Part shown: positions 1 to 36,837 of the stretch, piece after piece
How the letters are laid out: each line of letters starts with the position of its first letter
How positions within the stretch are numbered: position 1 is the first letter of the stretch
Virus record (IMG/VR): IMGVR_UViG_3300020405_000007
Location: 1-37,785 of that record
DNA length: 37,785 nt
Strand: one strand, 5' to 3'
Source of the DNA: a virus
Program-made: the position numbers and the translations under genes
Notes under the pieces: generated by a model
What the model was told of the DNA's origin: nothing
Databases searched by the model: none
Seen by the model: the letters and a program-made list of their open reading frames with translations, nothing else

Positions 1-834
1 TCGTGTGTATCATATACTACCTCTGGTAATACTTTTTCCAATTCTTGTGCAATAAGCCCTGTAGATTTCTTGCCATCTTTTTTGTAATTAAATGTAATAC
101 CTTGCAATTGACAAACCTTTTCTAGTGCATCAGGAATAACCTCAATGTTTTCTTTTAGTCTTATATCTGATGGAGACCCAAATGCTGTGACGTCACCTTT
201 ACAGATTATGGCACCTGCAGCTGACATATCAATCTGAACAGCATTTATACCATTTCCTCCGTCATTTCCTGCAAATATAATGTCCTTATCTTGCGTGGGG
301 TGTGTAATAAAAGCATTTGAAGTACTATTATCTCTAGTTATTGTTAAGAAATGTGTTCCTGCGCATTCATATCTAAAATCGTTTCCTGCCGCATCAAAAA
401 CTATGTCATTGTCAACATCAAAAGTTAAATCGCCAGTTGAGTTAGTAATATATGAACTAGTGCTGCTATGGTAGATAGTCATATCGTTTCCATCACCAAA
501 TACAGCTTTTTTATTATCTGGAAATTTTAAACCATCAGCAGAGGTAGAAACCATAACTGAGTTATTATGTAATAAATCTACTGCACCACCATTTGTGCAA
601 CGAATGTAATCAGCAGTACCACCACTATTTGCTACTCTTAGATCATTTCCTTCAAGTCTTAAATTTCCTGTGCCTGCATCTTTAATATAACTATCACTTC
701 CATCGTGGAAAATTTCTAAATCGTTTCCTGTTCCAAACCTTGCTTTAACATTATCATTAAAATCTACTCCGTTAGATCCACCGACACCAGCTGGTACTGA
801 TCCAAAAGACAAAGTTCCACTACCGTTTGTTGTT
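1..834. repeat. Terminal fibre-gene repeat, copy A (pairs with 36952-37785)
   Basis: This segment aligns to 36952-37785 over its full length with no net insertion or deletion. The ends are nearly identical (1-240 and 700-834), whereas about 555-700 differs at roughly half the positions. Both copies encode the same part of the tail fibre in the same frame. The simplest reading is that a circular or terminally redundant genome was assembled with two alleles of the fibre gene at the ends. A real tandem duplication is the alternative. A normal direct terminal repeat should be identical, so the divergence argues against that. Confidence 0.85.
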
Positions 835-2759
835 AAAAATTGTCCGTTGCTACCGTCAGCTGTTGGATAAGATAAGCCGTCAATAACTACTGCGCCAGAC
901 CCTTTAGGTGTTATTTTAAGGCCTATGTTTGTATCATCACCTGTTGCTGATATTTCAGGAGGATTACCTGTTGCAGCGTTTGTGACGTCTATTTGGTTGA
1001 CTGCAGATGATGTTGTTTGAAAAATTATTTGTTCATTGCCATTTTCGTCTGCAATAAAATGTGCATCATCAATTAATATATTGTTTGAGTTTGTGTCAAG
1101 GTTGCCGCCAAGTTGTGGTGATGAATCTTGAACTATATCTGTCAATGACCCTGCTACAATAGCGTTCCAAGATGATCCGTCATAATATTTTAAAGCAGAC
1201 GCTGTGGTATTAAAAACAAGGTCCCCTGCATCTAAAGACGATGATGGGTCACTACCTGCAACCCTATATCGTTCTGCAAAACTATTTACACCAGCTACAT
1301 TAGATGCAACGGTTGTAATATTTGAATTTGCTCCAGCTACTGTGTTGATGTTAGTTGCGTTTCCAGCTACAGCATTTATGTTTGTGCTATTGCTATTTAC
1401 AGCGTTTATGTTTGTTTCATTACTTGCTACAGCATTAATTTCAGTTGTATCACCAGCTACAGTGTTAATATTTGTTGCGTTCCCTGCTACTGCATTAATA
1501 TTTGTTGCATTACTTGCAACGGCTGAGATGTTAGAGTTAGCACCAGCTACCGTCGTAATATTTGAATTGGCACCAGCAACCGTATTAATATTAGTATTAT
1601 TACCAGCTACCGTGTTAATGTTTGTAGCATTACCAGCTACAGCATTTATATTAGTGGCATTACCTGCTACAGCGTTTATATTAGTAGCATTTGATACAGC
1701 ACTGTTTATGTTTGATTGATTCGATGTACTTGGTGTAGTAGATTGCCAGGCAGATCCTGAATAAACCTTAAATACATCATCTGTAGAATTAAAATACAAA
1801 GCACCTGTAGCAAGTGCATCACCATCATTATCAGCTGACGGGTCACTTGATTTACTACCTAAAAATATATCGTCAAAATTATCAAAACTTGTGGCTGCAG
1901 ATGTTGCGGATGATGCTGCTGCAGTTGCAGAGTTTGATGCATTTGTAGCTTGTGTTGAAGCTGTTGATGCTGATGTAGATGCGTTAGATTCACTTGTTGC
2001 CGCTGCTGTTGCTGAGTTTGCTGCAGCCGTTGCTGAGTTTGCGGCAGCTGTAGCAGAAGATGCAGCGTTTGTTGCAGATGTTGTTGCACTGGCTGCGTCT
2101 ACTAATAAACTCCATTTAGCAGAGTCTGTATTTGATGTAAGTGGCTGACTACCTGATGAGGTATGTGTGGTTGTACATATAAAAATGTTGTTTGTAGAAG
2201 TATCTTTTACAATATCTCTAGCATTATATGTAGTTCCTGCAGACCAGTTTCCAACAAACGTACCTAATTCCTGTGTCACTGATATTTCACCTGAGCCGTC
2301 AAAAGCAAGAATTTTATTCTGTCTATCAGTTGACCCAACGGTAAACTCTGTTGAGGTCATTGTATTTGTTCGAGATAACTTAATAGATCTGTCAAGTTCT
2401 TCTTGAACCTCCTGGACCTGCATTTGTAATTTGTCTAGTGCCGACTCGTGTGTCTCAGCTGGAAAAGGATCGTTTGCAACATAATCAGTTTCTTGTGTAA
2501 GATCGGTATCCCTAATTAAAACGACGGTATCGTCTGAACTTGGAATATTGCCTGATGTAAATGTGACTGTTCCTCCTGCAGCTCCTGCGTCTGCTATAGT
2601 ATAATGTGTAGTAATTGTTTTAGTTGTTTCAGTTCCAGTTGAAGATCGGATTATAACTTTTAATTCAGTGGTAGAATTGATGCCAAAAGTATAATTAAAG
2701 GCCGAAGTGCTGCCGTTCCCAGAATAGCTGTTTTTAACTGTGGTTGTACTTAAAGTCAT
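1..2759 (-). CDS. Tail fibre with S74 chaperone domain (3' end cut by window edge)
   Basis: Open from an ATG at 2759 to the window edge (919 residues). AGGA lies about 8 nt upstream of the start. The first ~100 residues resemble the T7-type fibre N-terminal domain that anchors to the tail (NSYSGNGSTSAFNYTF near residue 10). Then come an Ala/Ser-rich coiled-coil-like stretch (about 1880-2110), about 13 decapeptide repeats (1300-1715), a glycine-rich beta-structured shaft, and the start of a peptidase S74 intramolecular chaperone (SPSDIRLKENIEVIPDALEKV-type motif near 100-180). In this family the chaperone trimerises the fibre and then cleaves itself off. The last ~40 residues are missing but exist in the copy at 36834-37785. 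Joining the two gives an in-frame 958-residue protein. Role inferred: host receptor binding. Confidence 0.9.
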   Translation of the reverse strand, partial: MTLSTTTVKNSYSGNGSTSAFNYTFGINSTTELKVIIRSSTGTETTKTITTHYTIADAGAAGGTVTFTSGNIPSSDDTVVLIRDTDLTQETDYVANDPFPAETHESALDKLQMQVQEVQEELDRSIKLSRTNTMTSTEFTVGSTDRQNKILAFDGSGEISVTQELGTFVGNWSAGTTYNARDIVKDTSTNNIFICTTTHTSSGSQPLTSNTDSAKWSLLVDAASATTSATNAASSATAAANSATAAANSATAAATSESNASTSASTASTQATNASNSATAAASSATSAATSFDNFDDIFLGSKSSDPSADNDGDALATGALYFNSTDDVFKVYSGSAWQSTTPSTSNQSNINSAVSNATNINAVAGNATNINAVAGNATNINTVAGNNTNINTVAGANSNITTVAGANSNISAVASNATNINAVAGNATNINTVAGDTTEINAVASNETNINAVNSNSTNINAVAGNATNINTVAGANSNITTVASNVAGVNSFAERYRVAGSDPSSSLDAGDLVFNTTASALKYYDGSSWNAIVAGSLTDIVQDSSPQLGGNLDTNSNNILIDDAHFIADENGNEQIIFQTTSSAVNQIDVTNAATGNPPEISATGDDTNIGLKITPKGSGAVVIDGLSYPTADGSNGQFLTTNGSGTLSFGSVPAGVGGSNGVDFNDNVKARFGTGNDLEIFHDGSDSYIKDAGTGNLRLEGNDLRVANSGGTADYIRCTNGGAVDLLHNNSVMVSTSADGLKFPDNKKAVFGDGNDMTIYHSSTSSYITNSTGDLTFDVDNDIVFDAAGNDFRYECAGTHFLTITRDNSTSNAFITHPTQDKDIIFAGNDGGNGINAVQIDMSAAGAIICKGDVTAFGSPSDIRLKENIEVIPDALEKVCQLQGITFNYKKDGKKSTGLIAQELEKVLPEVVYDTH
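1300..1715 (-). repeat. Thirteen 30-bp coding repeats in tail fibre
   Basis: The fibre gene contains about 13 successive 30-bp units that encode the decapeptide consensus A-T-N-I-N-A/T-V-A-G-N. Variants include N-S-N-I-T-T-V-A-G-A and T-T-E-I-N-A-V-A-S-N. Units differ mainly at synonymous and conservative positions. Similar periodic Asn/Ile/Val repeats occur in marine phage fibres and probably form an extended trimeric shaft. Repeat number could change by recombination or slippage and alter fibre length. Confidence 0.85.
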
Positions 2760-2862: not shown

Positions 2863-5412
2863 TTAATTGAATATTGATGGTAAACTGTCAGGTTTTCTAT
2901 CACCAGGTGACCACCAGTAAGTATTTCTGTCATTTTTCTGCGTTCTTTTAATTTTTCTATTTATCTTTGACCTATGTTTTGGGTCAATTAGTTCAGATAT
3001 ATATTCAAAAAAGTACCTTTCTAAAACTAATCTCATATACCAGGCAGATGCACCTGGTGAGTTTTTAGATAAAAATTTAGCAACATCGGCACCTACGTTA
3101 GCTTTTTTCTCAGGATCTAGGCCCTGATAAATATTTCCAAATACTAAATCTAAAGATTGAAATATAAGCCCCGTTGTTGGTCCTGCAAGTTCAGCTGTCC
3201 TGCCGCTGACTCCATCAAGACTGTATCGTCCTCCAAAAATCATATCACCAACAAAACCTAATCCACCTCCGTGAAGCATAGCATCTAGCCAATATTTTGG
3301 GTTGTTGTAATTATCGTCTGTGCTTATATTTTGACCTTTAGTGATATTTTTTAGTTCTTTAGTTAAAGCACCCATTATTGTGGTTGATAACAACAATGGT
3401 AGAATATATCCTAATTTACCTTTTATGCCCTTTTTATAAATACCTCTCATCATATGTGTAAACATAAATGTTAGAGGAAATTGTTTAAACTGCAGTATTG
3501 ATCTTGCAAGTTCACCTAATACAGTACCAGGTCTTGATCTACCACTAATAACTGTAGCACCTCGTGCGTTTGCAACAGGCACTGCGTGATCAACAAAGTC
3601 CTGTACCATATGTTGATATTTGTATGCTAAATCCTGTGCTAGTAGTGGGCTTATATCAGTTCTTGCCGCTATATCATCAGATCTTAAATATAATGCACCT
3701 TTCCACTTAGCATCCTCTACACCAGCATCAAACAATTTTGTTTGTCTAATAATATTCCACTCTGCTTCTTTTATTCCGTGTTCACCTAAATATTGATGTA
3801 ATTTTGGATTTTTTTTTGCAATTTGTTTGTAAGTTTGGTCAACATTTCTTGCCATAAAAGCTATTACTTCTAAACCAGCTCCCCATCTTCCAGCTTGTGT
3901 TAGCCAAGAAAGTTGCGTAGTTCTCAAAATAAAATCTGCTAATCTTCTTGAAAATTCGTGACTTTCTACTGCATCCGCAGAATATCTTGACATAGCTGAT
4001 GCAAGTGTACTCCAATGTTCTGCGGCTAAACCAGATGTTGCAGCTATTTTTAATCTTGTGCTTTTGTTAACGCCTGACAACGGGCTAACAAAAGTTTTTA
4101 AATTTGAAAGCATAGCTTTTGCAGATGGAACCCCAGAAATTCTTGCAGTTATTCTAGTTAAATTAAAATCATTTAGTGCCATAAAAAAGGCAGAACCTAA
4201 ATAAGACGCTGTTGACAATTGTCTTAATGACGATAAGTTTTTTGCAGTCATAGCATTTACAGGAATGTTAAGATCGCCACGTAAATAATAATACATATTT
4301 TCGGTTGCCTCGATTGCGCCTCTTGCCCTGTTAACTTCTTTTTTTTGTTTTGCAGTGGGTTGTAAGTTTGCCCATTTATTTACTTCAGCTGATATTGTTC
4401 GTAAAAAAGCATCAGGGTTTGGACCCATAACTTGCATCATTGCAATGTCCCTAGCCATTTTATCAATGTGCGTTATTGAAACATTAAATAAATCACCATC
4501 TCCAAATCTATCTGTGTAAACTTTCCAAGATTCAAAATCTTTAAAGTGTATAAATCTATGATCCAGGCGTGAGTTTGCCAACATCTTGGAATTGCGTCCA
4601 CCTCCTAATTTTGTAGCATACCCATTTGTGATTATGTTGTTGTATGCTTCACCTAAAGCAATTTTAAGTTCTGCATCATCAAAATTTTTGCCAGTTTGAT
4701 AATTAATCATTTTGTCTCTGTCTAGCATAGGCATTACAAAATCAATCCACTCTTGTTGTGAAATGCCGCCAACTTTTGTAGAATTGTGATATTGAGGTAT
4801 GTATCTAAAAAGGGCTTTTGGTATGCTGCCACCAGCTGCATTAAATTTTACTCTGGCTAATTCAAAAGTTTGTATTAAGCTTTCCGCTATTTCTTCTGCT
4901 GCCTTGTTTCCTGTGCTGCCAGGATTATACATTTCTTGACCTATAAGTTCTAAATCTGCTTTGTTTCTTGTATTTCCTAATAATGTGTGTCGATGATTTT
5001 TTAAAAATGCATACATATTATTATGTAGCTCACCCCTTACTACTCGTGTTCTAACCTCTACATTAGCAAATTTTGTAGTACCCTCTGGCACTTCTAAAAA
5101 TCCAACAATTCTTTTTAATGCTTCGGGCGGGTCAATCTTATTTTTCATATTTTTGTATTCGTTTAAAATATAATTTTTTGCCCTGTTGACTGCAATATTT
5201 TGTAAAGAAGTGATGCGTTGTTTGCGCAATGCATTATATTGGAATGATTCAAAAGTAGCTTTTCCAGCAAGACGAGCTGCCTCAGTTTCATTTGCTCCTG
5301 CATCCAATGCTTTTTGTAAATTTTCTAAATACAATTGTTCTATATTTATCTGCTTTTCTTTTGGCAAGATGCCCTCTGCAGCTAAATTATCTATACATTT
5401 TATAAAACTCAT
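2863..5412 (-). CDS. Large internal virion / DNA-ejection protein, 849 aa
   Basis: Last of four consecutive genes in the position of T7 genes 13-16, between the tail-tube genes and the fibre. The start overlaps the stop of the upstream gene by 4 bp (ATGA), so translation is probably coupled. The protein is mostly helical and basic at the C-terminus. Hydrophobic stretches are visible near residues 400 and 675-700 (e.g. GYILPLLLSTTIMGALT). I see no lysozyme-like motif such as the one in T7 gp16. Position and size suggest a capsid-internal protein ejected with DNA into the cell envelope; this is inference from synteny. Confidence 0.7.
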   Translation of the reverse strand: MSFIKCIDNLAAEGILPKEKQINIEQLYLENLQKALDAGANETEAARLAGKATFESFQYNALRKQRITSLQNIAVNRAKNYILNEYKNMKNKIDPPEALKRIVGFLEVPEGTTKFANVEVRTRVVRGELHNNMYAFLKNHRHTLLGNTRNKADLELIGQEMYNPGSTGNKAAEEIAESLIQTFELARVKFNAAGGSIPKALFRYIPQYHNSTKVGGISQQEWIDFVMPMLDRDKMINYQTGKNFDDAELKIALGEAYNNIITNGYATKLGGGRNSKMLANSRLDHRFIHFKDFESWKVYTDRFGDGDLFNVSITHIDKMARDIAMMQVMGPNPDAFLRTISAEVNKWANLQPTAKQKKEVNRARGAIEATENMYYYLRGDLNIPVNAMTAKNLSSLRQLSTASYLGSAFFMALNDFNLTRITARISGVPSAKAMLSNLKTFVSPLSGVNKSTRLKIAATSGLAAEHWSTLASAMSRYSADAVESHEFSRRLADFILRTTQLSWLTQAGRWGAGLEVIAFMARNVDQTYKQIAKKNPKLHQYLGEHGIKEAEWNIIRQTKLFDAGVEDAKWKGALYLRSDDIAARTDISPLLAQDLAYKYQHMVQDFVDHAVPVANARGATVISGRSRPGTVLGELARSILQFKQFPLTFMFTHMMRGIYKKGIKGKLGYILPLLLSTTIMGALTKELKNITKGQNISTDDNYNNPKYWLDAMLHGGGLGFVGDMIFGGRYSLDGVSGRTAELAGPTTGLIFQSLDLVFGNIYQGLDPEKKANVGADVAKFLSKNSPGASAWYMRLVLERYFFEYISELIDPKHRSKINRKIKRTQKNDRNTYWWSPGDRKPDSLPSIFN

Positions 5413-8400
5413 AAACAGTCTCTTTTAATTAGTTCTCCAATTACCAAATTATCATTATCAACATCATCTTTAAATTGTTTCAATGTTTGAGTGACATTTG
5501 TTATTTCATCACCTTGTAATTTTTCACCAACAACAATTTCAATATTGTCAACATCATCAATAACACCCTCTCGTTGTTTTATTTGATTATATGTTTCGTC
5601 AAATAATATTTTATCTTCTGCAGCAAGTTTAGCTCTGTCTGCCTCCTCTGCTTTTGTCAATTTAACTTTTTCTTTATATTTTCTGTATGCCTTGCCTTGT
5701 TCAAATACAGCTGCTAAATCTTTGTGTTGAATTTGCACCTCCATACTAAAACCCTCACGAGTCACCATATTAAAATGTATAGCTCTGTATCCGCTGTCTT
5801 TTGTGTTTACAAAATAATTTTCAATATCAACAATTTTAATATCTTGTTCTCTAGCGGCCCTAAAAACCTTGTTAACATCTTCAAGCGTATCAACAAGTAT
5901 TCGGCCACCTAAATAATCACCCATATATTGAGCATCAGCACCGTAGTATTCTATTGTTTTTTCTACCTTAGTTTTTGCTTTTTTTGCTTCTTTGACTCTT
6001 GTTTTGATGGTTGCATTTTTTATGCCAATAGTTATATTATTAAGTGTGGACTCTAAGTCATTTTGATATTTTGCTGCTAAAACCAGTAATTGGTCTACAT
6101 CGTTTATATGTTGTAATACGGATTTTTGAACTATGGGATTAAAACTACCGATAGAAATTGTTTCATCAATCAGAGATGCTGGTGTAGCTGTTGCTTTAGC
6201 AAAAACAGATGATGACGGATCAGTTGTTGTTGCTTGGAGTATTCCTAAATCGTCCTGGGTTGATGCGTCCAAAGATTTTACAGTTGGTGATGTTTTAATA
6301 GCTCCTCCGCTTACAAATTCTGGGTTATTAGATGATATAGCCAAGTCTGCCTCTAAAGCTCCTAATTCTTGATCAGCATTTTTCTTTGACTGTACAAATT
6401 TATTTGGATCCTCAAAATTTTTAAGATTTTTTTGTTCTAGGTCAAGTTTTGGCGTTGTTGATATTTCTGATGCCTGGCCTTCAACAATTGCACTCCGTCT
6501 GTCTCCACTTGCATTAATCCCCTTAGTATCGCCTCGTTCAATTGCTGCTCGGATAGACTCGATAAAAGTTTCCGTTGCTTCTCGTTTGTTTCCATCTGCC
6601 CAAAGCCTTGCTGACCTTGTAAGAGCATCTGAGACTTCACCCTTTCTGTTTGCGAGAGTTTCGATTTGGTAGATTGCGATTGCATTTTGTTCCTCCTGTG
6701 TTTTGTTATAAGTTGTATCTAACCTGTTTTTGCCGTCCTGAATAATTCTTTGTTCATTTTGCACTAATGTTGCCATTACTGTTTTGTCTTTTTTTAATTT
6801 ATTTAGTGATGCTTGAAGTACCTTGCCTCTTTCTACAATTAGGGTTTCTTTGATTGTTGTTGTGCCAAACATATCAATTGTTTGTACTTCTCGATTTCCA
6901 GCTTGTAATATAGATTCAATTTGATTTCTAAGTTCTATTCCTGTAGCAGGTTTTGTTTTCTCTAAAACTTTCATTACACTTAAATGCAAAGCTGGATCGT
7001 CAACCATTTCACCCACTGCAGCTGCTATTTTTGCATTGATGCCTGAATTTAAAAAATAACCCCAGGCGTCGTCACTTAATTTATATAATGAGGTACTTAA
7101 TCTATATAAACTGGTATTTGGGGCCACTTTGTTAGCCATTCTATTTATGTATTCTGGGCTAACACGTAAAGCTCTTGCAACATCAACGGGGTTTGCGGTT
7201 CCGTTTTGTACATTTCTAATCATAGCTTCAGCCATAACCTCTTCAGGTGTAAATCCATCCACCTCTCTTCTTACAGTGGTATTGATAATTATGTTTGCAT
7301 CAGGGTCAGCAATTGATAGTCGTTTTGCAAGGCCTAAGCGTTGGTGACCGTCTGCAACAAAATAGGTTCCGTCAGCTTTTTGGTAAACCATCAAACTGCC
7401 TGCAGCATCTCGATCCCACTGTGTGACTTTTGCAAGTGTGTCTTTAACACCTCTTGCATCTCCACCTGTTTTAAATTGAAAAGTCTCTGCATCAAATTTT
7501 ATTTGATCAGGCGTTAGATATGTATCATATGCAACAGGACGATTTTCTTTTAATACTACAGGTACTGTTGGAGAATCTAAAATTCTTGGTTGATCACCTG
7601 TTTGTAAGGCCTCAGACGCAGCTGTCATTCTGCCATTGTGTTCTACTGTTCCCTCAATAGTTTGTGGAAATGGATTTTCAGCAAAATCATTTTCTAAATT
7701 TTTAATATCCTCAACTGCTTCGGCAACTTTAGGTTTAGACAGGATAGCTGGATTTAATGTTTCTAATACAATAACTAATTCATTTGGTTTTAAATTATTT
7801 AAATTTTGTGCAAAATATTTAACCCATTCTTCATCACTAAAATCAGGAAAATTTTCTTCAACAAATAATTTTGCTTTTAAATCAGGATTAAGTTCTGCAA
7901 CACCTTTAATAATTTGTTGTTTTGCAGCTCCGTAAGCTATAGCCGTGCCTTTTGCCCCTCCTAAAAAAGCAACAGGTATAACTGCTCCTGCAATTGTAGA
8001 AAATAAAACAATTTTAGCTGCGTCGTTAATATCATAATCTATACCCACTGATTGCTTAAATGGAAGAACTTGAGACTCAATACCTATCGTAGCACCAGCT
8101 GCCAATACTGATTCTGCCGCTGCCGTTTTTAATACAGTCCCAGCAAAAGTTCTACCAGCTCCATACGTAAAACTAATAGGCAATGTTGCTAATATTAAAG
8201 GATCTGTAAAACCAGCTCCAGCACCACCTACTAATGTTCCTACAAATCTATCAAATCCACTTTCTGAAAATTGGTTAACTGTTTGTAATCTTCTTGAGCT
8301 TTTTCTTGCTTTTTCTGCTTCTATTTCAAAAAAATGCATTTCACTGTTGGATTTTGCTCTTTCTGATGGAGGAATACTTGATAAATATTTATTTACCTGG

Positions 8401-8696
8401 TTTTGTATAAATTCCTTTTTTTCTTTATAAGAAATATCTTCATTTATTGCAGCTATTCTTGGATCAATATCGTTTGCTTTTCGTTCCATATCAAGTCGTT
8501 CTGCATCGGACATTGGTAAATCAGGTCTATAGGTATCTATTTGTGGTATGTTTGCATCAGGAAACACGGTATTAAAATTACTTATATATGCTGAAGTTGC
8601 TCTCATATCTAACATATGTGCTGACATTGAATTATGATAATTTAAAAAATCATCAAAAGCAGCTGACATATTATCATTAAATCCTTGAGGGTTCAT
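5409..8696 (-). CDS. Polyvalent ejection protein with ParB-like and RelA/SpoT-like domains
   Basis: About 1095 residues from the ATG at 8696, which has AAGGGG 8 nt upstream. A GTG at 8741 that overlaps the previous stop is the alternative start. The N-terminal third has hydrophobic segments typical of ejection proteins (about residues 150-260). A ParB-like domain spans about 395-605, with the core motif DGHQRLGLAKRL near 449. Close to the C-terminus (about 875-1015) is a RelA/SpoT synthetase-like domain: basic R-x-K segment near 900, DYLGGRI (Asp927), DSGYRAIH (969-974), then MEVQIQ (Glu986) followed by the usual E-x-G-K-A-Y..YK stretch. These match substrate- and Mg-binding motifs of (p)ppGpp synthetases. 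Enzyme activity is unproven. Confidence 0.75.
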   Translation of the reverse strand: MNPQGFNDNMSAAFDDFLNYHNSMSAHMLDMRATSAYISNFNTVFPDANIPQIDTYRPDLPMSDAERLDMERKANDIDPRIAAINEDISYKEKKEFIQNQVNKYLSSIPPSERAKSNSEMHFFEIEAEKARKSSRRLQTVNQFSESGFDRFVGTLVGGAGAGFTDPLILATLPISFTYGAGRTFAGTVLKTAAAESVLAAGATIGIESQVLPFKQSVGIDYDINDAAKIVLFSTIAGAVIPVAFLGGAKGTAIAYGAAKQQIIKGVAELNPDLKAKLFVEENFPDFSDEEWVKYFAQNLNNLKPNELVIVLETLNPAILSKPKVAEAVEDIKNLENDFAENPFPQTIEGTVEHNGRMTAASEALQTGDQPRILDSPTVPVVLKENRPVAYDTYLTPDQIKFDAETFQFKTGGDARGVKDTLAKVTQWDRDAAGSLMVYQKADGTYFVADGHQRLGLAKRLSIADPDANIIINTTVRREVDGFTPEEVMAEAMIRNVQNGTANPVDVARALRVSPEYINRMANKVAPNTSLYRLSTSLYKLSDDAWGYFLNSGINAKIAAAVGEMVDDPALHLSVMKVLEKTKPATGIELRNQIESILQAGNREVQTIDMFGTTTIKETLIVERGKVLQASLNKLKKDKTVMATLVQNEQRIIQDGKNRLDTTYNKTQEEQNAIAIYQIETLANRKGEVSDALTRSARLWADGNKREATETFIESIRAAIERGDTKGINASGDRRSAIVEGQASEISTTPKLDLEQKNLKNFEDPNKFVQSKKNADQELGALEADLAISSNNPEFVSGGAIKTSPTVKSLDASTQDDLGILQATTTDPSSSVFAKATATPASLIDETISIGSFNPIVQKSVLQHINDVDQLLVLAAKYQNDLESTLNNITIGIKNATIKTRVKEAKKAKTKVEKTIEYYGADAQYMGDYLGGRILVDTLEDVNKVFRAAREQDIKIVDIENYFVNTKDSGYRAIHFNMVTREGFSMEVQIQHKDLAAVFEQGKAYRKYKEKVKLTKAEEADRAKLAAEDKILFDETYNQIKQREGVIDDVDNIEIVVGEKLQGDEITNVTQTLKQFKDDVDNDNLVIGELIKRDCL

Positions 8697-8737
8697 TTCC
8701 ATAACCCCTTGTCTGTCTTTTCTTTTAGAGTTTATGA

Positions 8738-11011
8738 TCACAGGCCACTCAATTCTTTGTATATTTTTGCCAAATCAAAAATGACTAAATTACCTTGTTT
8801 ATCAACGACCTCGTGTATAGCTGTCTGAGGGCTGTCACCAAAAGCAAAAGTATATCTTCCAAAATCATAAGGTATAAGATGAACCATATTTTGATTAAAT
8901 AAATCTTCAGCTCTTGCTTCTCTCGGTCCATCTGTTGTAAATTCACTTTCAAAGTATGGCATTGAGCTAACAGATTTTGCTAATAATTCATCAGTCATAT
9001 TGTTATCCAGCATTTCTTCTAAACTTACAGTTTGGTTAAATCCAAAACCTTTATTAAAAAAACCACCTGGATTTTGAACTGAATTGAAGTGATAAGTTTG
9101 CTCTTGATATATTCCTGGCACGATAAGTTTGTAGCCATTATATTCTTCTAAACCGCCATACCCATTGGAATAACCAGCTGCATATTGAACCGCATTTTCC
9201 ATATGCTCAATTGCTTTCTTTATTGGCTCTGTGCCACTATTAAATTTCTTTGCTGTTGCAGGATCACTAAGTAATAATCCTTGGTAAATTAAATCTGCAG
9301 CTTCATTTAGCATATTGTATGTTTTTCTGTCATCAAGCAGTGGTGATGTTTGAAATATTGAAAAAGCATCAGTTTTAATATTTGAATATTCAAATTTTGT
9401 TGATTTATATTGATTTAAAATATCCTGTGTATTTTTATCATCCCTTAAAACAAATGCCTTAATTGCACTATCTATGTGTGTTGCAGGGCCTGTAGTTGAA
9501 TACAAAGTGCCTATCATTGCAATGCCGTCAGCACCGTCAATATCAGATAATTGTTGAAACGCAGCGTATCCATATTCACCTGACATTTGGCTTACATTTA
9601 CAATTAGATTTTTTATTTGATCTTCACTTCCAGTGGCCAATATTTGAGAAATTTGGCTACGTTCAGTTTCTAAAAAAAACTGTGGTATAGGTTTGTTGTA
9701 TAAGCTAGCTGTAGCAACAGCTGTTGCTGCCCTGTCATATAATAGGGTCATATCTTCAGGATCAGACCTATCTATGTCTGTAAAATCAATTGGCTGTACA
9801 TTAAGGCCAACAGAATTTGCAACACTTAATAAATTTTTATCCTCGTTCTTTTTTCTAAAATCAATTAATTTTTTTAGAGCTTTTTCTTTAGATACATTTA
9901 ATGAGTTAAAATCGTCACTGCCTGAGCTTGCATAATTAAATGCCCTTACTTGATTATATTCTGCCTGTATGTCAGACAAAGATGCTTTTTTAAATGGCTC
10001 TATATATTTAAAAACCTCTATCGAATTATTAAGGTCTTGTATTTCATCGAATAGGCCCACTTTTCCGTTTGCAATAAGTGCAGCACTTACACTTTCTGCT
10101 TTTTCCAATAAATCATTTACCTTGCTTACGCTTGGCATATAATCGTCTTTGTTTATATCAATAACATCTTTAATTTCGTCTTTTAACTCAGAAGCTGTTG
10201 AACTTAATGCTGCAAGAGCTTTGGTTTGATTTTTACTGTTTTGTCCATCTGCTGAACTTTTTAATTGTTGGACAACTTCTGGGTCTAAAGAGTTATATGC
10301 GCCGTCCTCATACAACTCATAAAATTTTTCTAAATTTTCTGCAATTAATTTATTTGCGTGTAATACACTTAACTCAGCTTTTAAATTATCATTAAATTGT
10401 TGTTTATCTAATTCTGGTTTGACGCCTTTTCTTACAAGTTTGTCATAAATGCCTAGTACGTTTTCACTACCAAACATATTATCCTCTTGCTGTGATTTTA
10501 TAATTCTATTTCCATCAGCGTCAGCATTTAACCAGGTATTCATCATTAAAAATTTTGAATCCGTAAGATCTTCAGAAACCTTTGTTAAATTGTTTTTGTA
10601 AATACTATTCTCAATGCTTGGGTAGTATCCCCTTACCTGTGTGTTTGCTGTGTTAAAAAACCACTCACTGACGTGTTTATTATCTTGTATGTTTGCATAA
10701 TATTTTTGTATTATTTTGTCAGCTTCAGCTTTGTATTCTCTGGCCCCATTTTCTACATCACTGCTTGTTTTATATTTATTGTTTAAATCTGTTATATCTA
10801 CAGTAAAATCATTCATCACTTGTGTCTGTAATCTATCATCAGATATTCTTTTATTTTTCTCATATACAGTTATCGCAAGATCAGCTGCTGAATTTGCAAA
10901 ATTAGACACTGCATTGCCTACTTGACCTGGATTGCTTGTTAAAAATGGTCTGTTTCTTGTTGGCCTTGCTATCGGTCTTGTTTCAGATTTATATGTTGGA
11001 ATTTTTACCAT
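8738..11011 (-). CDS. Internal virion protein, 757 aa
   Basis: Third large gene of the internal-protein block. It starts at ATG 11011, overlapping the stop of the preceding gene by one base, and ends overlapping a possible GTG start of the next gene. The protein begins with a Pro/Arg-rich segment (ETRPIARPTRNRPF) and then is largely polar and predicted helical, with no clear membrane segment or catalytic motif. Gene order matches T7-like phages where gp15-type core proteins sit here. Function inferred from position: part of the inner core or ejectosome. Confidence 0.6.
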   Translation of the reverse strand: MVKIPTYKSETRPIARPTRNRPFLTSNPGQVGNAVSNFANSAADLAITVYEKNKRISDDRLQTQVMNDFTVDITDLNNKYKTSSDVENGAREYKAEADKIIQKYYANIQDNKHVSEWFFNTANTQVRGYYPSIENSIYKNNLTKVSEDLTDSKFLMMNTWLNADADGNRIIKSQQEDNMFGSENVLGIYDKLVRKGVKPELDKQQFNDNLKAELSVLHANKLIAENLEKFYELYEDGAYNSLDPEVVQQLKSSADGQNSKNQTKALAALSSTASELKDEIKDVIDINKDDYMPSVSKVNDLLEKAESVSAALIANGKVGLFDEIQDLNNSIEVFKYIEPFKKASLSDIQAEYNQVRAFNYASSGSDDFNSLNVSKEKALKKLIDFRKKNEDKNLLSVANSVGLNVQPIDFTDIDRSDPEDMTLLYDRAATAVATASLYNKPIPQFFLETERSQISQILATGSEDQIKNLIVNVSQMSGEYGYAAFQQLSDIDGADGIAMIGTLYSTTGPATHIDSAIKAFVLRDDKNTQDILNQYKSTKFEYSNIKTDAFSIFQTSPLLDDRKTYNMLNEAADLIYQGLLLSDPATAKKFNSGTEPIKKAIEHMENAVQYAAGYSNGYGGLEEYNGYKLIVPGIYQEQTYHFNSVQNPGGFFNKGFGFNQTVSLEEMLDNNMTDELLAKSVSSMPYFESEFTTDGPREARAEDLFNQNMVHLIPYDFGRYTFAFGDSPQTAIHEVVDKQGNLVIFDLAKIYKELSGL

Positions 11012-11496
11012 TATGTTTGCATAGCTTTTGCAGCCCCTCCTAATAGTGATGATGCAGCATTAAAGTATGATGCTTTTTTTGCATTTTTACCTCTTGCTAG
11101 TGCAGCCGCACCTTCCATCCTAGATATAACGGCTTGTTCAATTTTATCTGCACTATCTACTTTTGCATTGTACATTATTATTTCTTTTTCTAGCTCAGCT
11201 TCTGCATACATAGCTGTTAACACTTCTATCGGTGTCCCTTCAAGTTTAACACCTGATTTTAAATATGATGCTGTTGTTTGGCTTTGCAATGAATTAAAAT
11301 CTTTTTCAAAAATAGATACATTTCTTTTGCCTAAAGCAATTGATTGTTCTGCATCTTGCTCTGCCTTAATTGCGTTTCGTTCTGCAATTTTTTGGTTTGC
11401 TTTACCTTCTTGCTCAGCAGCTTTACCAGCGTAAATTTGACCAGCAGCTCCTGCTGTTGCAGCTGTTGCTATTGCTATTGTGACTGGATCACCCAT
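11011..11496 (-). CDS. Internal core protein, T7 gp14-like
   Basis: 161 residues, Ala-rich. A short hydrophobic N-terminus (TIAIATAATAGAAGQIYAG) is followed by a long amphipathic helix rich in Glu, Lys and Ala, and a small hydrophobic C-terminal patch (AASSLLGGAAKA). This length and layout are typical of gp14-like podovirus core proteins, which are ejected first and insert in the outer membrane. The stop of the upstream gene overlaps its start by one base. Assignment rests on layout and neighbours, not on an exact motif. Confidence 0.6.
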   Translation of the reverse strand: MGDPVTIAIATAATAGAAGQIYAGKAAEQEGKANQKIAERNAIKAEQDAEQSIALGKRNVSIFEKDFNSLQSQTTASYLKSGVKLEGTPIEVLTAMYAEAELEKEIIMYNAKVDSADKIEQAVISRMEGAAALARGKNAKKASYFNAASSLLGGAAKAMQT

Positions 11497-11933
11497 TAAA
11501 ATAACCTCGCATATAAATCATAATCGTTGTTGTCCATATATTTTTTCATAACACCCTCTGAATGTAATCCCAGCCATTTTGCAAACTTGTGTCCTGTTTC
11601 AAAATCTGATCTTACCGTTGTTTGTAATCTTTCGACCTTATTGTCAGTCATAACCTTATCAAAAATTTTTTTTATAATCCTTGCTGTTTGTATTGGGTGT
11701 TTGTGTATATCGTTAGTGGCCATCACCCAACCCTCATAGACATTTCCCCACATATTGATCATACCTCCTGCAGCAATAATTTTATCATCAACTATTCCTG
11801 TCCAACTCATACCAGGTTTTTCAAGCTGATCCAACATATCATAATATTCAGGACGAACCTTCATAAGATCATTATTCATCCGTCGTTCCGCTATGTATCT
11901 ACCGTGTTCTGCTTTAAAAGCTATAATTTGCAT
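11496..11933 (-). CDS. Internal virion protein gp13-like, GNAT fold
   Basis: 145 residues with a GNAT-like pattern: a solvent-exposed beta hairpin (SWTGIVDDKIIAAGGMINMW), a helix after HPIQTARIIKKI, and the closing FAKWLGLHSEG...KKYMDNNDYDLYARLF segment. This closely resembles the T7 gp13 family of phage internal proteins, which carry an acetyltransferase fold but are thought to act in virion assembly. It lies between the tail-tube B gene and the gp14-like gene, the expected place, with 1-base stop/start overlaps on both sides. Confidence 0.7.
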   Translation of the reverse strand: MQIIAFKAEHGRYIAERRMNNDLMKVRPEYYDMLDQLEKPGMSWTGIVDDKIIAAGGMINMWGNVYEGWVMATNDIHKHPIQTARIIKKIFDKVMTDNKVERLQTTVRSDFETGHKFAKWLGLHSEGVMKKYMDNNDYDLYARLF

Positions 11934-14458
11934 TAACCTTCGTAAACTGTTAGCTCTGGGTATATTGACAGTACAGTCAAAGGCAATGGCTGTGTTTGTC
12001 TTACAAAAATATGCCCATCACTATTATAATCATCTCGCAGCTCAATTTTTTTGTCCCCAGAAAATAAATCAATTGGTGTATCCATCAATGCTGCTGAGGA
12101 CCTAAAAGGTATATTCTCCATAGATTCTAAATCACTGCCAACTTCTACGCCTAGAGTTTTGTGTAATCGTACTGTTATTTCATTTATTCTTTTAATTTTA
12201 GATTGTGCAACACCTTGCGCAGCTCCTGCCTCTATTCGTAAGGTTTGCAAGATTGAATCATAATTCAATCCAATATGCACTTTTTGTGCTGCCCTGTCTA
12301 AAGTCACGGCACCGTCACTAACAAGTTTGTCTGCGTGTGTGGCTCCATCAGCCAGTATCGATACAGTCTCACCCTCTAGGTGACTTAATCCAGTTATTGA
12401 TGTTGTCGGGCTTCCGTCATAACTAAGGCCACTGTCCACAAAGAAAGCATCATCTTGTGTCTCACCAAAATCGAAAGCAGTTAAAAATTCAACAAACCTT
12501 CTTGTAGCTCCGTTAATGTATCTTTTTACAACTAAATATAATTGATACTCATCTTGATCAGACGGTATGACACCAATAGACTCAACGGTTGCATCAACTA
12601 AAATTTTATCAGTCCTGGCAGATGTCACACTTACATCATACTGTAAATCGACAAATGTTTTTAATTTACTGTCTAGTGCAATTTTAAATTGATCATCATC
12701 TATTTTTTTCACAAAATATTTAGCTTTGTCTGTTATGTTGCTTAAACCAGTGCCGCCTAAATTATAATAAAAATGATCACCCGTAGATAATCCGTGTGAT
12801 GCAGAATACACTACATTAGTAGCAAGATTGACACCCTTAAAAATAAATTGAGTGGTGTCTGTGCTTGGTGCTGATGTTAAATCGACCGCAGTACCCGCTG
12901 TTGCGTTTGCAGCTGTGGTTGCTAATTTTATTGTGTTAGAGTCAACTGATATTATAAAATATAGTAAGTCTGTTGTAATTCCACCAATAGCATTTGTTTC
13001 TGTAAAATAATAAACAGGATCACCTGTTGAAAAACCGTGTGAGCTGATTGTTATGCTGTTTGATGTTATGTTTACATTGCTACCATTAGACGTAAAACTT
13101 TTAAAAGACCTGGCAATATTTTTACTATTATAATCATACCCACCAAGAATGTGACGATGCCACCCAACAACTTTTTCATTTCTTTGGTAAGTTAAGCCCA
13201 GTAGTACACCATCATTTCTTGTGGCCCATAAAATCGAATCTGGCTCTTGTTGGTATGCAAAACTTTTAAGACCGCCTTTGGTTATATGTTCCGCTAAAAT
13301 TGTCATATCAGGTGCAATAAAACCATCAACCTCGTAGTTATAAACCATCTCTCTTACTTTTCGTTTTGCTCTTTGCAAAAACATTGTGACGTTAGCAATT
13401 TGAATTGCGTCAACATTGGCTGATCCGTAGTTTGTTTGCCTTATGATCTGAATATTTGTAGGTGTAATTGGCTCACTATTTGTACCAGATGTTGCAATAA
13501 ATTCACCGCCTGTAGTACCAATCAACAATTGTGTTTGGTTAGATAAAAATCTTATAGCGTTAACCTGATTACTTGCAATTGTGTAGATCATAGCATCGGT
13601 AGCGTTAGTACCTGTAGCAAAATTTTCATAACTACCGCCTACGCTAAACCATAAAGATTGCGGATTATTATTTGTACCAGCAAAAACTAATCTTTGTTCA
13701 AAAAATGTCACTGAGCTTGGAAAGTTATCTGACCCTGTAAGGCCTGGTGAAGGGGAGCCTGTTATTGAAACGGTGTTGAGTGTCCAGGAAGTGTGTCCTG
13801 TCCGTGTTAATTTACGTATAGCATAACCAGGATGGACGATGTACATAATATCAGCAGATTGTGCATATTTAATCTCAAATAAATCAGCTTTGTCGTATGG
13901 TGATGTTATTTGATATATTCTAAATGCCTCGCCGCCTGATGCGTACGTTGTAAGTGATGATGTATCAAAATTGTTGCCGTCGGTATCTTGTAATTGAAAT
14001 GTGTTAGTAGCAACTCCAGCAACTTTGAATTGTCTGCCGTTTAATTCTGTCATACCAACTATGCCGCTTAAAATTACATAATCACCGTTAGAATAGCCGT
14101 GGCTGGATGCAGTGACTACGCCAGGATTAGCTTTTGTAATACCTGTTATTGTTTTAGCAGCTTCTGTGATGATACCGTTGTCTTTAAAAAATCTAATATA
14201 TTGATCGCCAAACTCCATCATATAAGTTTGTGTCGTTGAAAACTCAAAAGGTATAAGTCTTGTTTGATCACCACTGTTTTTTACTTCAGCAACAAACTTG
14301 GTCCCAGGTCTGCGAGATGCGCCTCCGTGTGGGTGTATGACCATATTTTCTAAAGTTTTTGTACCACTAAAATATTTTTCTAAATCTATTCGCCCGTCAA
14401 GTCTTGGTGACAGTTCACCTGATGTAAAACTTGCAAAGCCAAAAGTAGTTTTTGCCAT
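11933..14458 (-). CDS. Tail tubular protein B-like (gp12-type) with FCCH-like inserts
   Basis: 841 residues. The N-terminus has the pattern FTSGELSPRLDGRIDLEKY followed by an HGGASRRPGT segment, characteristic of the podovirus tail-tube B / stabilisation family. Three short modules carry the signature SHG-x-S-N/T-GD near residues 120, 475 and 556, resembling small beta domains of the ubiquitin-activating-enzyme FCCH type found in phage tail proteins. The C-terminus is beta-rich. It probably forms the distal tail tube with the tail-tube A protein encoded just upstream. Confidence 0.8.
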   Translation of the reverse strand: MAKTTFGFASFTSGELSPRLDGRIDLEKYFSGTKTLENMVIHPHGGASRRPGTKFVAEVKNSGDQTRLIPFEFSTTQTYMMEFGDQYIRFFKDNGIITEAAKTITGITKANPGVVTASSHGYSNGDYVILSGIVGMTELNGRQFKVAGVATNTFQLQDTDGNNFDTSSLTTYASGGEAFRIYQITSPYDKADLFEIKYAQSADIMYIVHPGYAIRKLTRTGHTSWTLNTVSITGSPSPGLTGSDNFPSSVTFFEQRLVFAGTNNNPQSLWFSVGGSYENFATGTNATDAMIYTIASNQVNAIRFLSNQTQLLIGTTGGEFIATSGTNSEPITPTNIQIIRQTNYGSANVDAIQIANVTMFLQRAKRKVREMVYNYEVDGFIAPDMTILAEHITKGGLKSFAYQQEPDSILWATRNDGVLLGLTYQRNEKVVGWHRHILGGYDYNSKNIARSFKSFTSNGSNVNITSNSITISSHGFSTGDPVYYFTETNAIGGITTDLLYFIISVDSNTIKLATTAANATAGTAVDLTSAPSTDTTQFIFKGVNLATNVVYSASHGLSTGDHFYYNLGGTGLSNITDKAKYFVKKIDDDQFKIALDSKLKTFVDLQYDVSVTSARTDKILVDATVESIGVIPSDQDEYQLYLVVKRYINGATRRFVEFLTAFDFGETQDDAFFVDSGLSYDGSPTTSITGLSHLEGETVSILADGATHADKLVSDGAVTLDRAAQKVHIGLNYDSILQTLRIEAGAAQGVAQSKIKRINEITVRLHKTLGVEVGSDLESMENIPFRSSAALMDTPIDLFSGDKKIELRDDYNSDGHIFVRQTQPLPLTVLSIYPELTVYEG

Positions 14459-23254: not shown

Positions 23255-23265
23255 AATGATTTGCT

Positions 23266-23305
23266 GATTATATAATATTTGTTAGTTTATTCGGTCAAAA
23301 TTGTC
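23266..23305 (-). promoter_or_regulatory. Late promoter, copy 2 (upstream of terminase block)
   Basis: Minus-strand TTGACC at 23298-23293 and TATAAT at 23272-23267 with a 20-nt spacer, the same geometry as the site at 2818-2857 and identical at 34 of 40 positions. It points into the HGG-terS-terL operon. The upstream GACA element (23305-23302) is conserved in both copies and could be part of an activator site or a second -35. Confidence 0.7.
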
Positions 23306-23341
23306 TAATAAAAAAAAATTAAAAAAAATGTGTGTGTGGGG

Positions 23342-29939: not shown

Positions 29940-30087
29940 CACCCCCCTGAAATGGTCTTGTTCTGGGCCAATACAATATTTTTTTACCGATTACTTTGCT
30001 CGATAGATCCCTGTTAGGCAGTATTTCTTTCATAAAAAATGCCTCTAGATCATCAAAGTTTTTAAATGATTTTGCGTGTATTTTCAT
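29914..30087 (-). CDS. Small basic protein after integrase, 57 aa
   Basis: ATG 30087 overlaps the integrase stop (ATGA) and the frame runs to TAG 29914. The first half is amphipathic (KSFKNFDDLEAFFMKEILPNRDL), the second half is basic (KVIGKKILYWPRTRPFQGG). Coupling to the integrase suggests expression with it. It might be an accessory recombination factor, but there is no motif to show this. Confidence 0.45.
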   Translation of the reverse strand: MKIHAKSFKNFDDLEAFFMKEILPNRDLSSKVIGKKILYWPRTRPFQGGARVPGVSK

Positions 30088-31247
30088 TGTATGAGTTTGT
30101 TTACCTTATCAAGATTGTTAAACCATTTGTCCTGGTCATTAAAACATTTAGCATACCTTTTCATTGTAAACCCTGGGTCCTCGTGGCCCAAGAAAGCAGC
30201 TATTTCTAAATTACTGTATACCTTAGAATCAATTAAAAAAGATGCGTAAAAGTGTCTAAAACTGTGTACGCCGCCATTATATTTTGCATTGCTTTTTTCT
30301 TTGAGTTTTAGAAAGTTGCGTCTAAATGTTTCGTAAACAATCCAGGTGCCGTTCCTGCCAAACACATACTCATTGTCACTTTCGTCGTCATTATGCCATT
30401 GTCGCAATTTTCTGGCTACATTATTAAAGAGTGGTATTGATCGTTTTGCAGCGTCAGTTTTACCTCTGCCTTTCATTGCGTCTTGTCCTGTATCTGTCCT
30501 ACATATAAAATTGTTAATATGTATGCTGCCAGTATTCCATCCTATGTCGGACCATCGAAGAGCAGCCCAATCTTGCCATCTACAGCCCATCCAGGGAACG
30601 GTTGAGACAATAGCATTGTAGACACCGCTGCTGTTTTTTTTCATTGATATTAGATCATTTTTAGATGGTATCTCAATCAGCTCTACTTCTTTAACTTGCC
30701 TTTTTCTTTGTTTCCATTTGAACGATCTTAGCTTGTTTGTGTGTATAATATTTTTTGATACACACACATCAAGTATGCCTTTTGCATTAAACAAACAACG
30801 TCTAATCTTATCGTTGCTGCAGCCCATATCACGTAAATCAGAAATAAGCTGCTTGCAGTCGTCAGCAACAAGGTCTTTTATTGGTTGTTTTGCAAAGTCA
30901 GTTTTGGCTATCAGCTCACTACACTGGTATTTATAGTTATCTAATTCCTTCTTGCTTAAATCATCGTTGTCATAATCGTGCTGTTTTGACGATATATACG
31001 GTTTGATACCATCTAGAAGGGTATACTCAGTGAAAAACTGATTATGCCCTGTAGCGTTAATTTTGGCACAATATGCATTTGCTGCTTCTTGAGCTGCTTG
31101 TTTTGGTTTTGAGTGAGCAGCATAGTCTGTTGACGGGTTGAATTTTTTTATTTTACTTTTTAACTGGTGACCATCCATATAGGGTGCTACCACTTTGAAA
31201 CCCTGTTTGCCCTCACGGTTTGTGTATCTTTGTACTGTTGCTTTCAT
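30084..31247 (-). CDS. int: Tyrosine integrase
   Basis: 387 residues from ATG 31247, which overlaps the upstream stop (ATGA) with GGAGGAG in front; another ATG at 31268 would add 7 residues. Catalytic set: Arg223 (MGCRWQDW), Lys263 or Lys268, H-S-F-R-H at 328-332 (His328, Arg331), His355 (GHED) and Tyr365 (MKRYAKC). A core-binding domain precedes it at about 75-180. It recombines attP at 31732-31755 with a host tRNA-Ser gene. All active-site residues are present, so a temperate lifestyle is likely. Confidence 0.9.
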   Translation of the reverse strand: MKATVQRYTNREGKQGFKVVAPYMDGHQLKSKIKKFNPSTDYAAHSKPKQAAQEAANAYCAKINATGHNQFFTEYTLLDGIKPYISSKQHDYDNDDLSKKELDNYKYQCSELIAKTDFAKQPIKDLVADDCKQLISDLRDMGCSNDKIRRCLFNAKGILDVCVSKNIIHTNKLRSFKWKQRKRQVKEVELIEIPSKNDLISMKKNSSGVYNAIVSTVPWMGCRWQDWAALRWSDIGWNTGSIHINNFICRTDTGQDAMKGRGKTDAAKRSIPLFNNVARKLRQWHNDDESDNEYVFGRNGTWIVYETFRRNFLKLKEKSNAKYNGGVHSFRHFYASFLIDSKVYSNLEIAAFLGHEDPGFTMKRYAKCFNDQDKWFNNLDKVNKLIQ

Positions 31248-31519
31248 ATTATCTTTTTGCTCCTCCATACCTCATATCTGCCTGGGCCGTACTCCCTGAT
31301 TGTTTCTCTAAGGTATGGGTGATAAAAAAAGCCATCTTTGTCTCTGCGTATTTTTATTTTAAACTCTTTTAGAAAACCAGCAGAGTCTGACATTAACAAA
31401 GATTGTGCTGAGGCAACTCTTTCATAATCAGTTATGGTTGCATATTTTTGCTTATGCTGATTAGCTGACCATTCGTCAAGAGCTGGGCCATTGTCGTGAT
31501 CGTGTCCAATCTTATTCAT
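31244..31519 (-). CDS. Hypothetical protein upstream of integrase, 91 aa
   Basis: Start chosen at ATG 31519, with AAAGGA about 8 nt upstream; an upstream in-frame ATG lacks such a signal. The protein has a His/Asp-rich N-terminus (GHDHDNGPALDEW), a helix, and a basic C-terminus (EFKIKIRRDKDG; GPGRYEVWRSKKI). It overlaps the integrase start by 4 bp. Its position makes an excisionase or directionality factor possible, but no such motif is clear. Confidence 0.55.
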   Translation of the reverse strand: MNKIGHDHDNGPALDEWSANQHKQKYATITDYERVASAQSLLMSDSAGFLKEFKIKIRRDKDGFFYHPYLRETIREYGPGRYEVWRSKKII

Positions 31520-34098: not shown

Positions 34099-34308
34099 TT
34101 AAAAATAAACTAAAACATTTAAGTAATCTAATATTGGTGCGTACTTCCATCCAAAACCAAAGAAAAAGTTTGCAACATAAATAAATCCATTGATTATTAA
34201 TATTTTGGTACCTAAAAATATAAAAATTAACCACAGTATGGTTTTGAGTAAACCGTAATTTCTATAAAAATTAATTATGATTCTAAGTAGAGGCCAGTTC
34301 CATTTCAT
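34099..34308 (-). CDS. Small membrane protein, 69 aa
   Basis: 69 residues, very hydrophobic and aromatic, with two probable membrane segments (LKTILWLIFIFLGTKILIING; FIYVANFFFGFGW). It is coupled by ATGA overlap to the COQ4-like gene and precedes the XhlA-like gene. It could be an extra holin or a partner of the COQ4-like protein at the membrane. No family recognised. Confidence 0.5.
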   Translation of the reverse strand: MKWNWPLLRIIINFYRNYGLLKTILWLIFIFLGTKILIINGFIYVANFFFGFGWKYAPILDYLNVLVYF

Positions 34309-36229: not shown

Positions 36230-36837
36230 TGGTTTATAATATTTGTTCCTGAGCCACTTGTTGAAAATTGAAAACTTTGATTGGCCCATTCCCAGGTTGT
36301 TGCATTACCACCTGTCGAATAACTTGCATTAGCTCTAAGCAATGTTTTATTGCCTACTAAATTTCCAAGATTTAAACAACTTGACGGTATAAACCAACTG
36401 GTAAAACCACTATTTGCTAATGTACCACTAGCAATTAATCTGAGGTCAGTTATACTTTGTCCTCCTTTACCAATACTTGATGATGACCCCATAACCACCC
36501 AAGTTGGGTTAAATCCATTTGAAAATGCAGTTGATTGAGGGTTGTTGCTTAAACTTCCAATATTTGTAGCACTTGCAAATCCTACTATACTTCCTAAACC
36601 ACCGTTTCCATTAACCATAGCATAACTGTAGCTTGTTGGAGCAGGGCTTGTATTGCTCTGTCCGTGAAAGTCTGACAAAGAGATAGTTCCTGATGTTGGT
36701 ACATTTGCGTTGTTGCTGTGATTAGCTACAAAACTTCCACCTTTATAATACTCGGAAAGTGAGTGACTTCCACTCCCTCCGTACTCCCCAACCAGTGAAT
36801 TTATCGATATTGCGTTTCCTGCTGCTGGTAAAGTCAT
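36226..36837 (-). CDS. Putative tail-tip / receptor-associated protein, 203 aa
   Basis: 203 residues rich in Ser, Gly and Asn. The N-terminus MTLPAAGNAISINSLVGEYG, then SLSEYYKGG and GTISLSDFHGQS, is a recognisable phage tail module (start MTLP-x-x-G-x-I-S, end I-S-L-S-D-F-x-G). The body looks beta-sandwich-like. It follows the fibre gene with a 4-bp overlap and probably decorates the tail tip or fibre. Confidence 0.65.
   Translation of the reverse strand: MTLPAAGNAISINSLVGEYGGSGSHSLSEYYKGGSFVANHSNNANVPTSGTISLSDFHGQSNTSPAPTSYSYAMVNGNGGLGSIVGFASATNIGSLSNNPQSTAFSNGFNPTWVVMGSSSSIGKGGQSITDLRLIASGTLANSGFTSWFIPSSCLNLGNLVGNKTLLRANASYSTGGNATTWEWANQSFQFSTSGSGTNIINQ

Follow-up and report, generated by a model that had tools for sequence, protein, structure and literature searches.

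What is a RelA/SpoT-type synthetase domain doing in the same protein as a ParB-like core, among the internal virion genes of a marine phage? The question is raised by the gene at 5409..8741 of IMG/VR record IMGVR_UViG_3300020405_000007, whose whole stretch of 37,785 nucleotides was analysed and is referred to here as the window; this gene, like all the window genes and protein features given below, lies on the minus strand. It encodes, from a GTG start, a protein of 1110 amino acids (hereafter, the carrier) and is located between the gene of a 757-residue internal protein and a phrog_684 gene. The original prediction had set the length of the protein at about 1095 residues, which would instead fit an internal ATG at residue 14, and had dealt with positions 5640-7515, that is, residues ~410-1034 of the carrier. 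Its reading of the protein as a polyvalent, virion-delivered nucleotide-transfer enzyme is the best fit and is partly supported by the sequence analysis, with packaging, ejection and catalysis as the conditional parts; what it missed is that the carrier is conserved and its cassettes interchangeable, the RelA domain being one of several. The explanation that we consider reasonably probable is that the carrier is a packaged and ejected internal virion protein that delivers an exchangeable effector, here a RelA/SpoT-type pyrophosphotransferase. In related phages the carrier bears a different toxin-type enzyme or lacks one, so these exchangeable enzymes are probably injected together with the phage DNA.

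The RelA/SpoT-type cassette and its active site

The synthetase domain occupies residues 881-1062 (5556..6101). In a Pfam scan, RelA_SpoT (PF04607) matched residues 914-1025 at 42.3 bits over a cut-off of 27 (E 1e-10), and solved RelA/SpoT homologue (RSH) enzymes were also matched at the sequence level. An AlphaFold2 model of residues 868-1064, built on 12 aligned family members, reached a predicted local distance difference test (pLDDT) score of 91.9 and a predicted template modelling score of 0.86. Its best Foldseek matches are the RelP and RelQ small alarmone synthetases (SAS; E 3e-9), and VIA-align overlays it on SAS1 5ded with a Z of 17.1 (168 residues, 3.0 Å), on the tRNA pyrophosphokinase CapRel with 14.3 and on Tas1 with 13.7. 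The RelA/SpoT-type segment that had been proposed near the C-terminus is therefore borne out by both profile and fold (SAS fold, Z 16-17), with the catalytic Asp and Glu retained. The same part of the protein is matched by phrog_4773 and phrog_14421, both without an assigned function.

All the motifs quoted in the original prediction (the ParB-like one, DYLGGRI, DSGYRAIH, MEVQIQ and E-x-G-K-A-Y..YK) are found in the carrier, and its claim that the key synthetase residues are intact holds for the window, where K, D, R, GY, H, E and Q are all present. Syn1 reads TRVK (residues 914-917, 5991..6002), syn2 GDYLGGRI (941-948, 5898..5921), syn3 DSGYRAIH (982-989, 5775..5798) and syn4 MEVQIQ (1000-1005, 5727..5744), and a further motif match is EQGKAYRKYK (1014-1023, 5673-5702). 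Across 12 aligned relatives, the syn1 Lys, the metal-binding Asp of syn2 (D942), the Gly, Tyr and His of syn3, and the Glu (E1001) and Gln (Q1003) of syn4 are invariant. In addition, the carrier gene is kept at full length in L002 (~73% identity) and L012 (~63%), with a ratio of nonsynonymous to synonymous substitution rates (dN/dS) well below 1, and this ratio is ~0.16 for the RelA domain against both of them. Intact motifs and low dN/dS make an active enzyme likely in the window's lineage.

Several departures from the canonical motifs weigh against this reading. Syn4 is EVQIQH and not EIQIRT, in the window a Tyr stands where the canonical H..YK motif has His, the syn1 Arg is kept only in the window, L002 and L012 while the other aligned members have Asn or Asp, and the syn2 Arg is missing in L095 and L099; with the syn1 or syn2 Arg lost in some farther relatives, some copies may be weak, altered or inactive. 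The altered syn1 and syn4 and the two relatives lacking the syn2 Arg would also suit a RelA domain that is non-catalytic and acts by binding a nucleotide or a host or defence partner (e.g., as a CapRel-type toxSAS decoy), or that is purely structural. Consistent with this notion, the domain matches the PADLOC candidate defence family PDC-S33 (E 5.7e-9), and a divergent cluster of 22 relatives, described below, has GYFDxK for GYRxxH and could be partly dead. Such a role is nevertheless unlikely, given that the residues listed above are all in the window, that the catalytic Asp and Glu are invariant in 12 of 12 relatives, that purifying selection is clear, and that the alternative cassettes are likewise enzyme domains.

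For the pyrophosphotransferase that we favour, catalysis and acceptor are predictions, a further point to its disadvantage. Syn2 and syn3 of the window resemble those of guanosine enzymes, with the His retained, whereas syn4 does not; syn3 (GYRAIH) is RSH-like, unlike the GxN of the adenosine-specific Apk2. It has been demonstrated, however, that swapping these motifs left specificity unchanged in Apk2 (PMC5576092, PMC12226406). A choice of product among (p)ppGpp, (p)ppApp and tRNA by motifs was consequently dropped, because syn4 is discordant and the Apk2 swaps were without effect. A guanosine nucleotide or a tRNA 3′ end is weakly favoured over ATP as the acceptor.

The closest structural counterparts, RelQ and RelP (SAS1 and SAS2), share the catalytic motifs of the cassette, but they are stand-alone cellular enzymes of ~200 residues, whereas the cassette is one domain of an 1110-residue phage protein, differs in syn4 and has Tyr in place of His. 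CapRel, other toxSAS and Tas1/Apk1 put the same fold to toxic use, and Tas1 is also delivered. However, CapRel is a host immunity protein with a fused antitoxin and Tas1 a type VI secretion effector with an immunity gene, and the carrier shows neither arrangement. Among RelA matches in phage collections, MT835702 (L008) was rejected as a relative because this phage record contains host DNA, with a full bacterial-type long RelA/Rel, and several others were set aside as annotated host RelA/SpoT.

Cassette types and their exchange

A scan with the ParB core confirmed the carrier in 151 IMG/VR viral stretches, 80 of which were kept for work on the family, and in 19 bacterial contigs or metagenome-assembled genomes, mostly alphaproteobacterial. 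An N-terminal segment, the core, a linker and a tail with a Cys near its end are common to the main group, also to members in which only ~60-145 residues follow the core; the giant relatives L106, L107 and L109, together with L110 and L111, have another ending in place of the main-group tail. A 2563-residue protein with a ParB core is also encoded at 7624-15315 of L009 (Prochlorococcus phage P-SCSP1k, a T7-like cyanophage).

The cassette lies between the linker that follows the core and the Cys-ending tail. Cassettes were clustered by their inner part, as BLAST clustering of whole C-termini had merged 63 through the shared linker and tail. They comprise 28 Zeta-type kinases, 11 RelA/SpoT domains of the window's type plus those of L001 and L095, 22 divergent RelA-like domains, four PBECR1, one PBECR3 and four unknown ones, and 24 complete carriers have no cassette. 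An ART or ART-like cassette is present in four carriers (weak in L026, and in L107 and L109 recognised through similarity to L106); PBECR3 and ART were found in bacterial contigs. The Pfam tally, out of 61, was Zeta 27, RelA_SpoT five, PBECR1 two and a weak ART one. For the divergent RelA-like cluster (L027, L033, L047, L051 and 18 more) no convincing Pfam match was obtained. Its profile matched the RelA alignment with a probability of 97 (E 1e-10) and the motifs in register (TDvaR.G, vlDEG, GYFDxK in place of GYRxxH, and gEiQiw), while a Zeta control profile did not match that alignment.

On a tree of the cores, a quick one with some long branches, cassette type changes at least 29 times, compared with a mean of 57 after shuffling, which indicates that the cassette is partly inherited and often exchanged. 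At the DNA level, exchange is seen between near-identical genomes. L047 and L074 are ~86-92% identical on both sides of a RelA-like cassette in one and a Zeta cassette in the other; L024 and L027 (83-89%) align along both flanks and differ in their cassettes; and in L075 and L088 (~88-94%) a stretch of ~890 nt is present in one and cleanly absent from the other. No obvious repeat was found at the L075/L088 junction, and self-alignment for repeats flanking the cassette gave nothing usable. As some carriers lack a cassette, it is dispensable for assembly. Phages that are near-identical except for the cassette offer a ready natural comparison of effector roles. Moreover, cassette exchange could help explain the hypervariable island reported around the internal virion protein of HTVC010P-type phages (PMC6487183, PMC10504331).

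Two further observations concern cassette and tail. The tail of the cassette-less L042 matches L050 twice (residues 892-942 and 1142-1192), on either side of a PBECR1 cassette, the insertion of which may have doubled the tail. The Zeta cassette is also matched by gene 114 of halovirus HCTV-5 (KC292027), annotated as a 'zeta toxin and ParB nuclease domain protein', so that by annotation and match the Zeta-ParB pairing also occurs outside bacteria, in an archaeal virus.

The conserved carrier and its proposed delivery

The ParB-like core spans residues 401-735 (6537..7541) and is made up of a ParB/Srx N-domain, a helix-turn-helix (HTH) domain and a helical extension. It is matched by phrog_10691 (E 3.5e-39), and its P-motif (DGHQRLGLAKRL, residues 464-475, nt 7317-7352) contains an A-D-G-H-Q-R invariant in 49 aligned core sequences. 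The predicted structure (pLDDT 84) matches Noc 7nfu (E 1.5e-4), ParB (Z 9-10) and KorB, and the matches run across both the N-domain and the HTH domain (residues 16-236 of the model against Noc 7nfu and 26-231 against ParB). The ParB-like core of the original prediction thus stands on the phrog match and the modelled fold; in Pfam, no ParB model of any kind matched the carrier at E<=1, and a PDB sequence search with the core profile returned nothing significant. The assignment to ParB is accordingly one of motif and predicted structure. ParB sequence does not predict which nucleotide is used (PMC12704722); the core probably binds DNA and a nucleotide, the DNA being perhaps the phage genome itself.

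Between core and cassette lies a conserved linker (about residues 736-805, 6327..6536), in which a stretch of ~49 columns is shared ahead of Zeta and divergent RelA-like cassettes. The C-terminal tail (residues 1063-1110, 5412..5555, ending TLKQFKDD...KRDCL) is found in nearly all complete main-group carriers whatever the cassette, cassette-less ones included, and its Cys is nearly invariant. At the other end, residues 1-375 (7617..8741), with a hydrophobic Gly-rich segment near residues 170-265 that recurs in most carriers, are presumed to be the ejection or assembly part. Residues 132-258 align with HTVC203P gp46, 'internal virion protein D' (E 1e-4), and residues 2-277 with a Vibrio podovirus protein (E 7e-6). 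Two relatives carry in addition an N-terminal Pesticin-type lysozyme (PF16754, E ~1e-34; residues 4-154 of L013 and 5-150 of L016), which fits the idea of a wall-penetrating virion protein.

The slot of the gene is fixed. In the window and its nearest relatives the order is tail tubular A, tail tubular B, a 145-residue protein, a 161-residue gp14-like protein, the 757-residue protein, the carrier, the 849-residue protein and the fibre. Tail tubular B upstream and/or the 849-residue gene downstream were found in nearly all scored loci, the latter in 88 of the 92 loci whose carrier is complete, at a median gap of -4 nt. This T7-like order, with gp14-like and phrog_684 genes around the carrier, upholds the proposed placement in an internal-virion block. 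T7 gp14, gp15 and gp16 and the internal virion proteins of pelagiphages occupy the same slot, of which HTVC203P gp46 is the positional counterpart; however, gp46 has 490 residues and matches the N-terminal part of the carrier only, not the ParB core or the cassette.

From the known podoviral ejection proteins (PMC8954989) we infer that the carrier is packaged and ejected, and from the effector classes to which the cassettes belong (PMC5512222, PMC5576092) that it acts on the cell just infected. The carrier would owe its place in the particle to its N-terminal part and its Cys-ending tail, and the cassette between core and tail would be the effector. A RelA/SpoT-type 3′-pyrophosphotransferase would then enter a SAR11-type host together with the phage DNA and transfer pyrophosphate from ATP to a 3′-OH, ahead of phage gene expression or independently of it. 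The phage would benefit by quickly curbing host translation, replication or defence, and an alarmone-like or tRNA-modifying enzyme would reach the cell before the first phage gene is read. Three points count on the other side of the balance: the presence of the carrier in the particle follows from gene position and homology, its N-terminal part resembles ejection proteins only weakly (E 1e-4), and no immunity gene that could shield the producing cell from the enzyme late in infection lies between the carrier and the 849-residue gene of the window.

The timing of expression bears on whether the enzyme acts after ejection at all. The gene belongs to a late structural operon and is hence made late, the producing cell has no protective immunity gene, and an integrase gene in the window leaves a temperate life possible, all of which would accord with an enzyme that works at a late stage of infection within the cell that makes it, for example in superinfection exclusion or in the timing of shut-off. 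We hold this to be quite unlikely, as fusion to a virion-slot protein and retention of the tail in cassette-less forms better suit delivery, and a late enzyme would need no fusion.

The lack of an immunity gene extends to the family: the gap between the carrier and the next structural gene exceeds 150 nt in only one of 88 loci, leaving 87 without room for a downstream immunity open reading frame (ORF). This separates the carrier from MuF toxins, 89% of which have a small downstream ORF (PMC5576092, PMC12226406), and is in line with an effector that serves the infecting phage itself. It has been proposed for MuF polymorphic toxins with RelA-like (Apk2) ends, some of which have been characterised as producing (p)ppApp, that the particle brings the enzyme into competitors of the lysogen while lysogens are protected (PMC5576092, PMC12226406). 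Like the head protein of MuF/Apk2, the carrier is a predicted particle protein with a variable toxin part, and its occurrence in bacterial contigs and the integrase gene of the window would be in keeping with such a weapon. Yet full-length Pfam scans of the window protein, L013, L016 and L050 found no MuF domain, the gene is followed by no immunity ORF and lies in a podoviral ejection block, the cassette is internal and precedes a Cys tail, and syn3 keeps the RSH-type His where Apk2 has GxN; this alternative is therefore very improbable.

Virion-borne RelA domains are already known from polyvalent proteins and MuF/Apk2. RelA/SpoT domains in injected phage proteins, also joined with DdrB-like ParB, were described in 2017 by Iyer et al., who reported RelA and ParB in one protein of Helicobacter prophages (PMC5512222), and Zeta, PBECR, ART and RelA are effector classes of polymorphic toxins as well as of polyvalent proteins (PMC5512222, PMC5576092). 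Like the carrier, polyvalent proteins are large, encoded with late genes and predicted to be injected, and they hold RelA/SpoT, ParB-like, Zeta, PBECR and ART domains (PMC5512222); the carrier, too, combines several domains in one protein (ParB and RelA, and Pesticin in L016), linked to the virion by gene order. Unlike them, it is fixed apart from one replaceable cassette ahead of a conserved tail, whereas polyvalent proteins are reported to follow no plan of fixed front and variable end (PMC5512222), and its ParB domain has no Pfam match at E<=1 and is modelled with an HTH like that of Noc/ParB. Fixed carrier, exchangeable effector, at least 29 changes on the tree and exchange at the DNA level amount to a polymorphic toxin-like organisation. 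A literature search of partial coverage found no description of a carrier with exchangeable cassettes; within that coverage, neither its presence in SAR11-type podoviruses with the cassette between ParB core and Cys tail and a Noc-like HTH, nor the divergent RelA-like branch and the DNA-level exchange, was found described.

More tentatively, with chances that we would put slightly short of even, the carrier may be a general delivery device of marine and alphaproteobacterial podoviruses, in which a ParB/Noc-type clamp and the Cys tail carry a swappable effector for host take-over. The clamp may ride on the entering genome, and the whole would form a polymorphic-effector system without immunity genes, its cassettes swapped by recombination.

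The virus and the neighbouring genes

HTVC010P-type SAR11 phages count among the most abundant marine viruses. The portal-capsid region of the window is ~67-69% identical at the DNA level to 22 cultured HTVC010P-type Pelagibacter phages; the phage is of the marine, SAR11-infecting kind, with a SAR11-type host. Its structural genes run in the order head-tail connector, protease/scaffold, major capsid, tail tubular A and tail tubular B (11933..14458, phrog_376, E 2.8e-204), then two small genes, the second of which encodes the T7 gp14-like internal virion protein (11011..11496, phrog_418, E 3.4e-17). The 757-residue gene (8738..11011) is co-conserved with the carrier, with homologues upstream of it in many loci, including all close relatives. 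The GTG of the carrier overlaps the upstream stop and its own stop overlaps the ATG of the next gene, by a few bases each, as in a translationally coupled operon. That next gene encodes the 849-residue virion structural protein (2863..5412, phrog_684, E 5e-143), and beyond it lies a tail fibre with a C-terminal Peptidase_S74 chaperone (3..2759, PF13884, E 4.9e-16). The fibre ORF at 3-2759 and another at 36834-37784 are both open-ended and both have Peptidase_S74, and their frames would join if the record were circular.

Elsewhere in the window, the tyrosine integrase gene (30084-31268, PF00589, E 1.5e-13) suggests that the phage may be temperate, and 34305-35162 encodes a Coq4-like protein of ubiquinone biosynthesis (PF05019, E 6e-7), unusual in a phage. 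Finally, a repeat of ~50 nt, ~80% identical and in the same orientation, is found in the gap upstream of the tail fibre (2810-2860) and at the distant 23259-23308; it was also seen in the comparison with L002 and is possibly a regulatory element.
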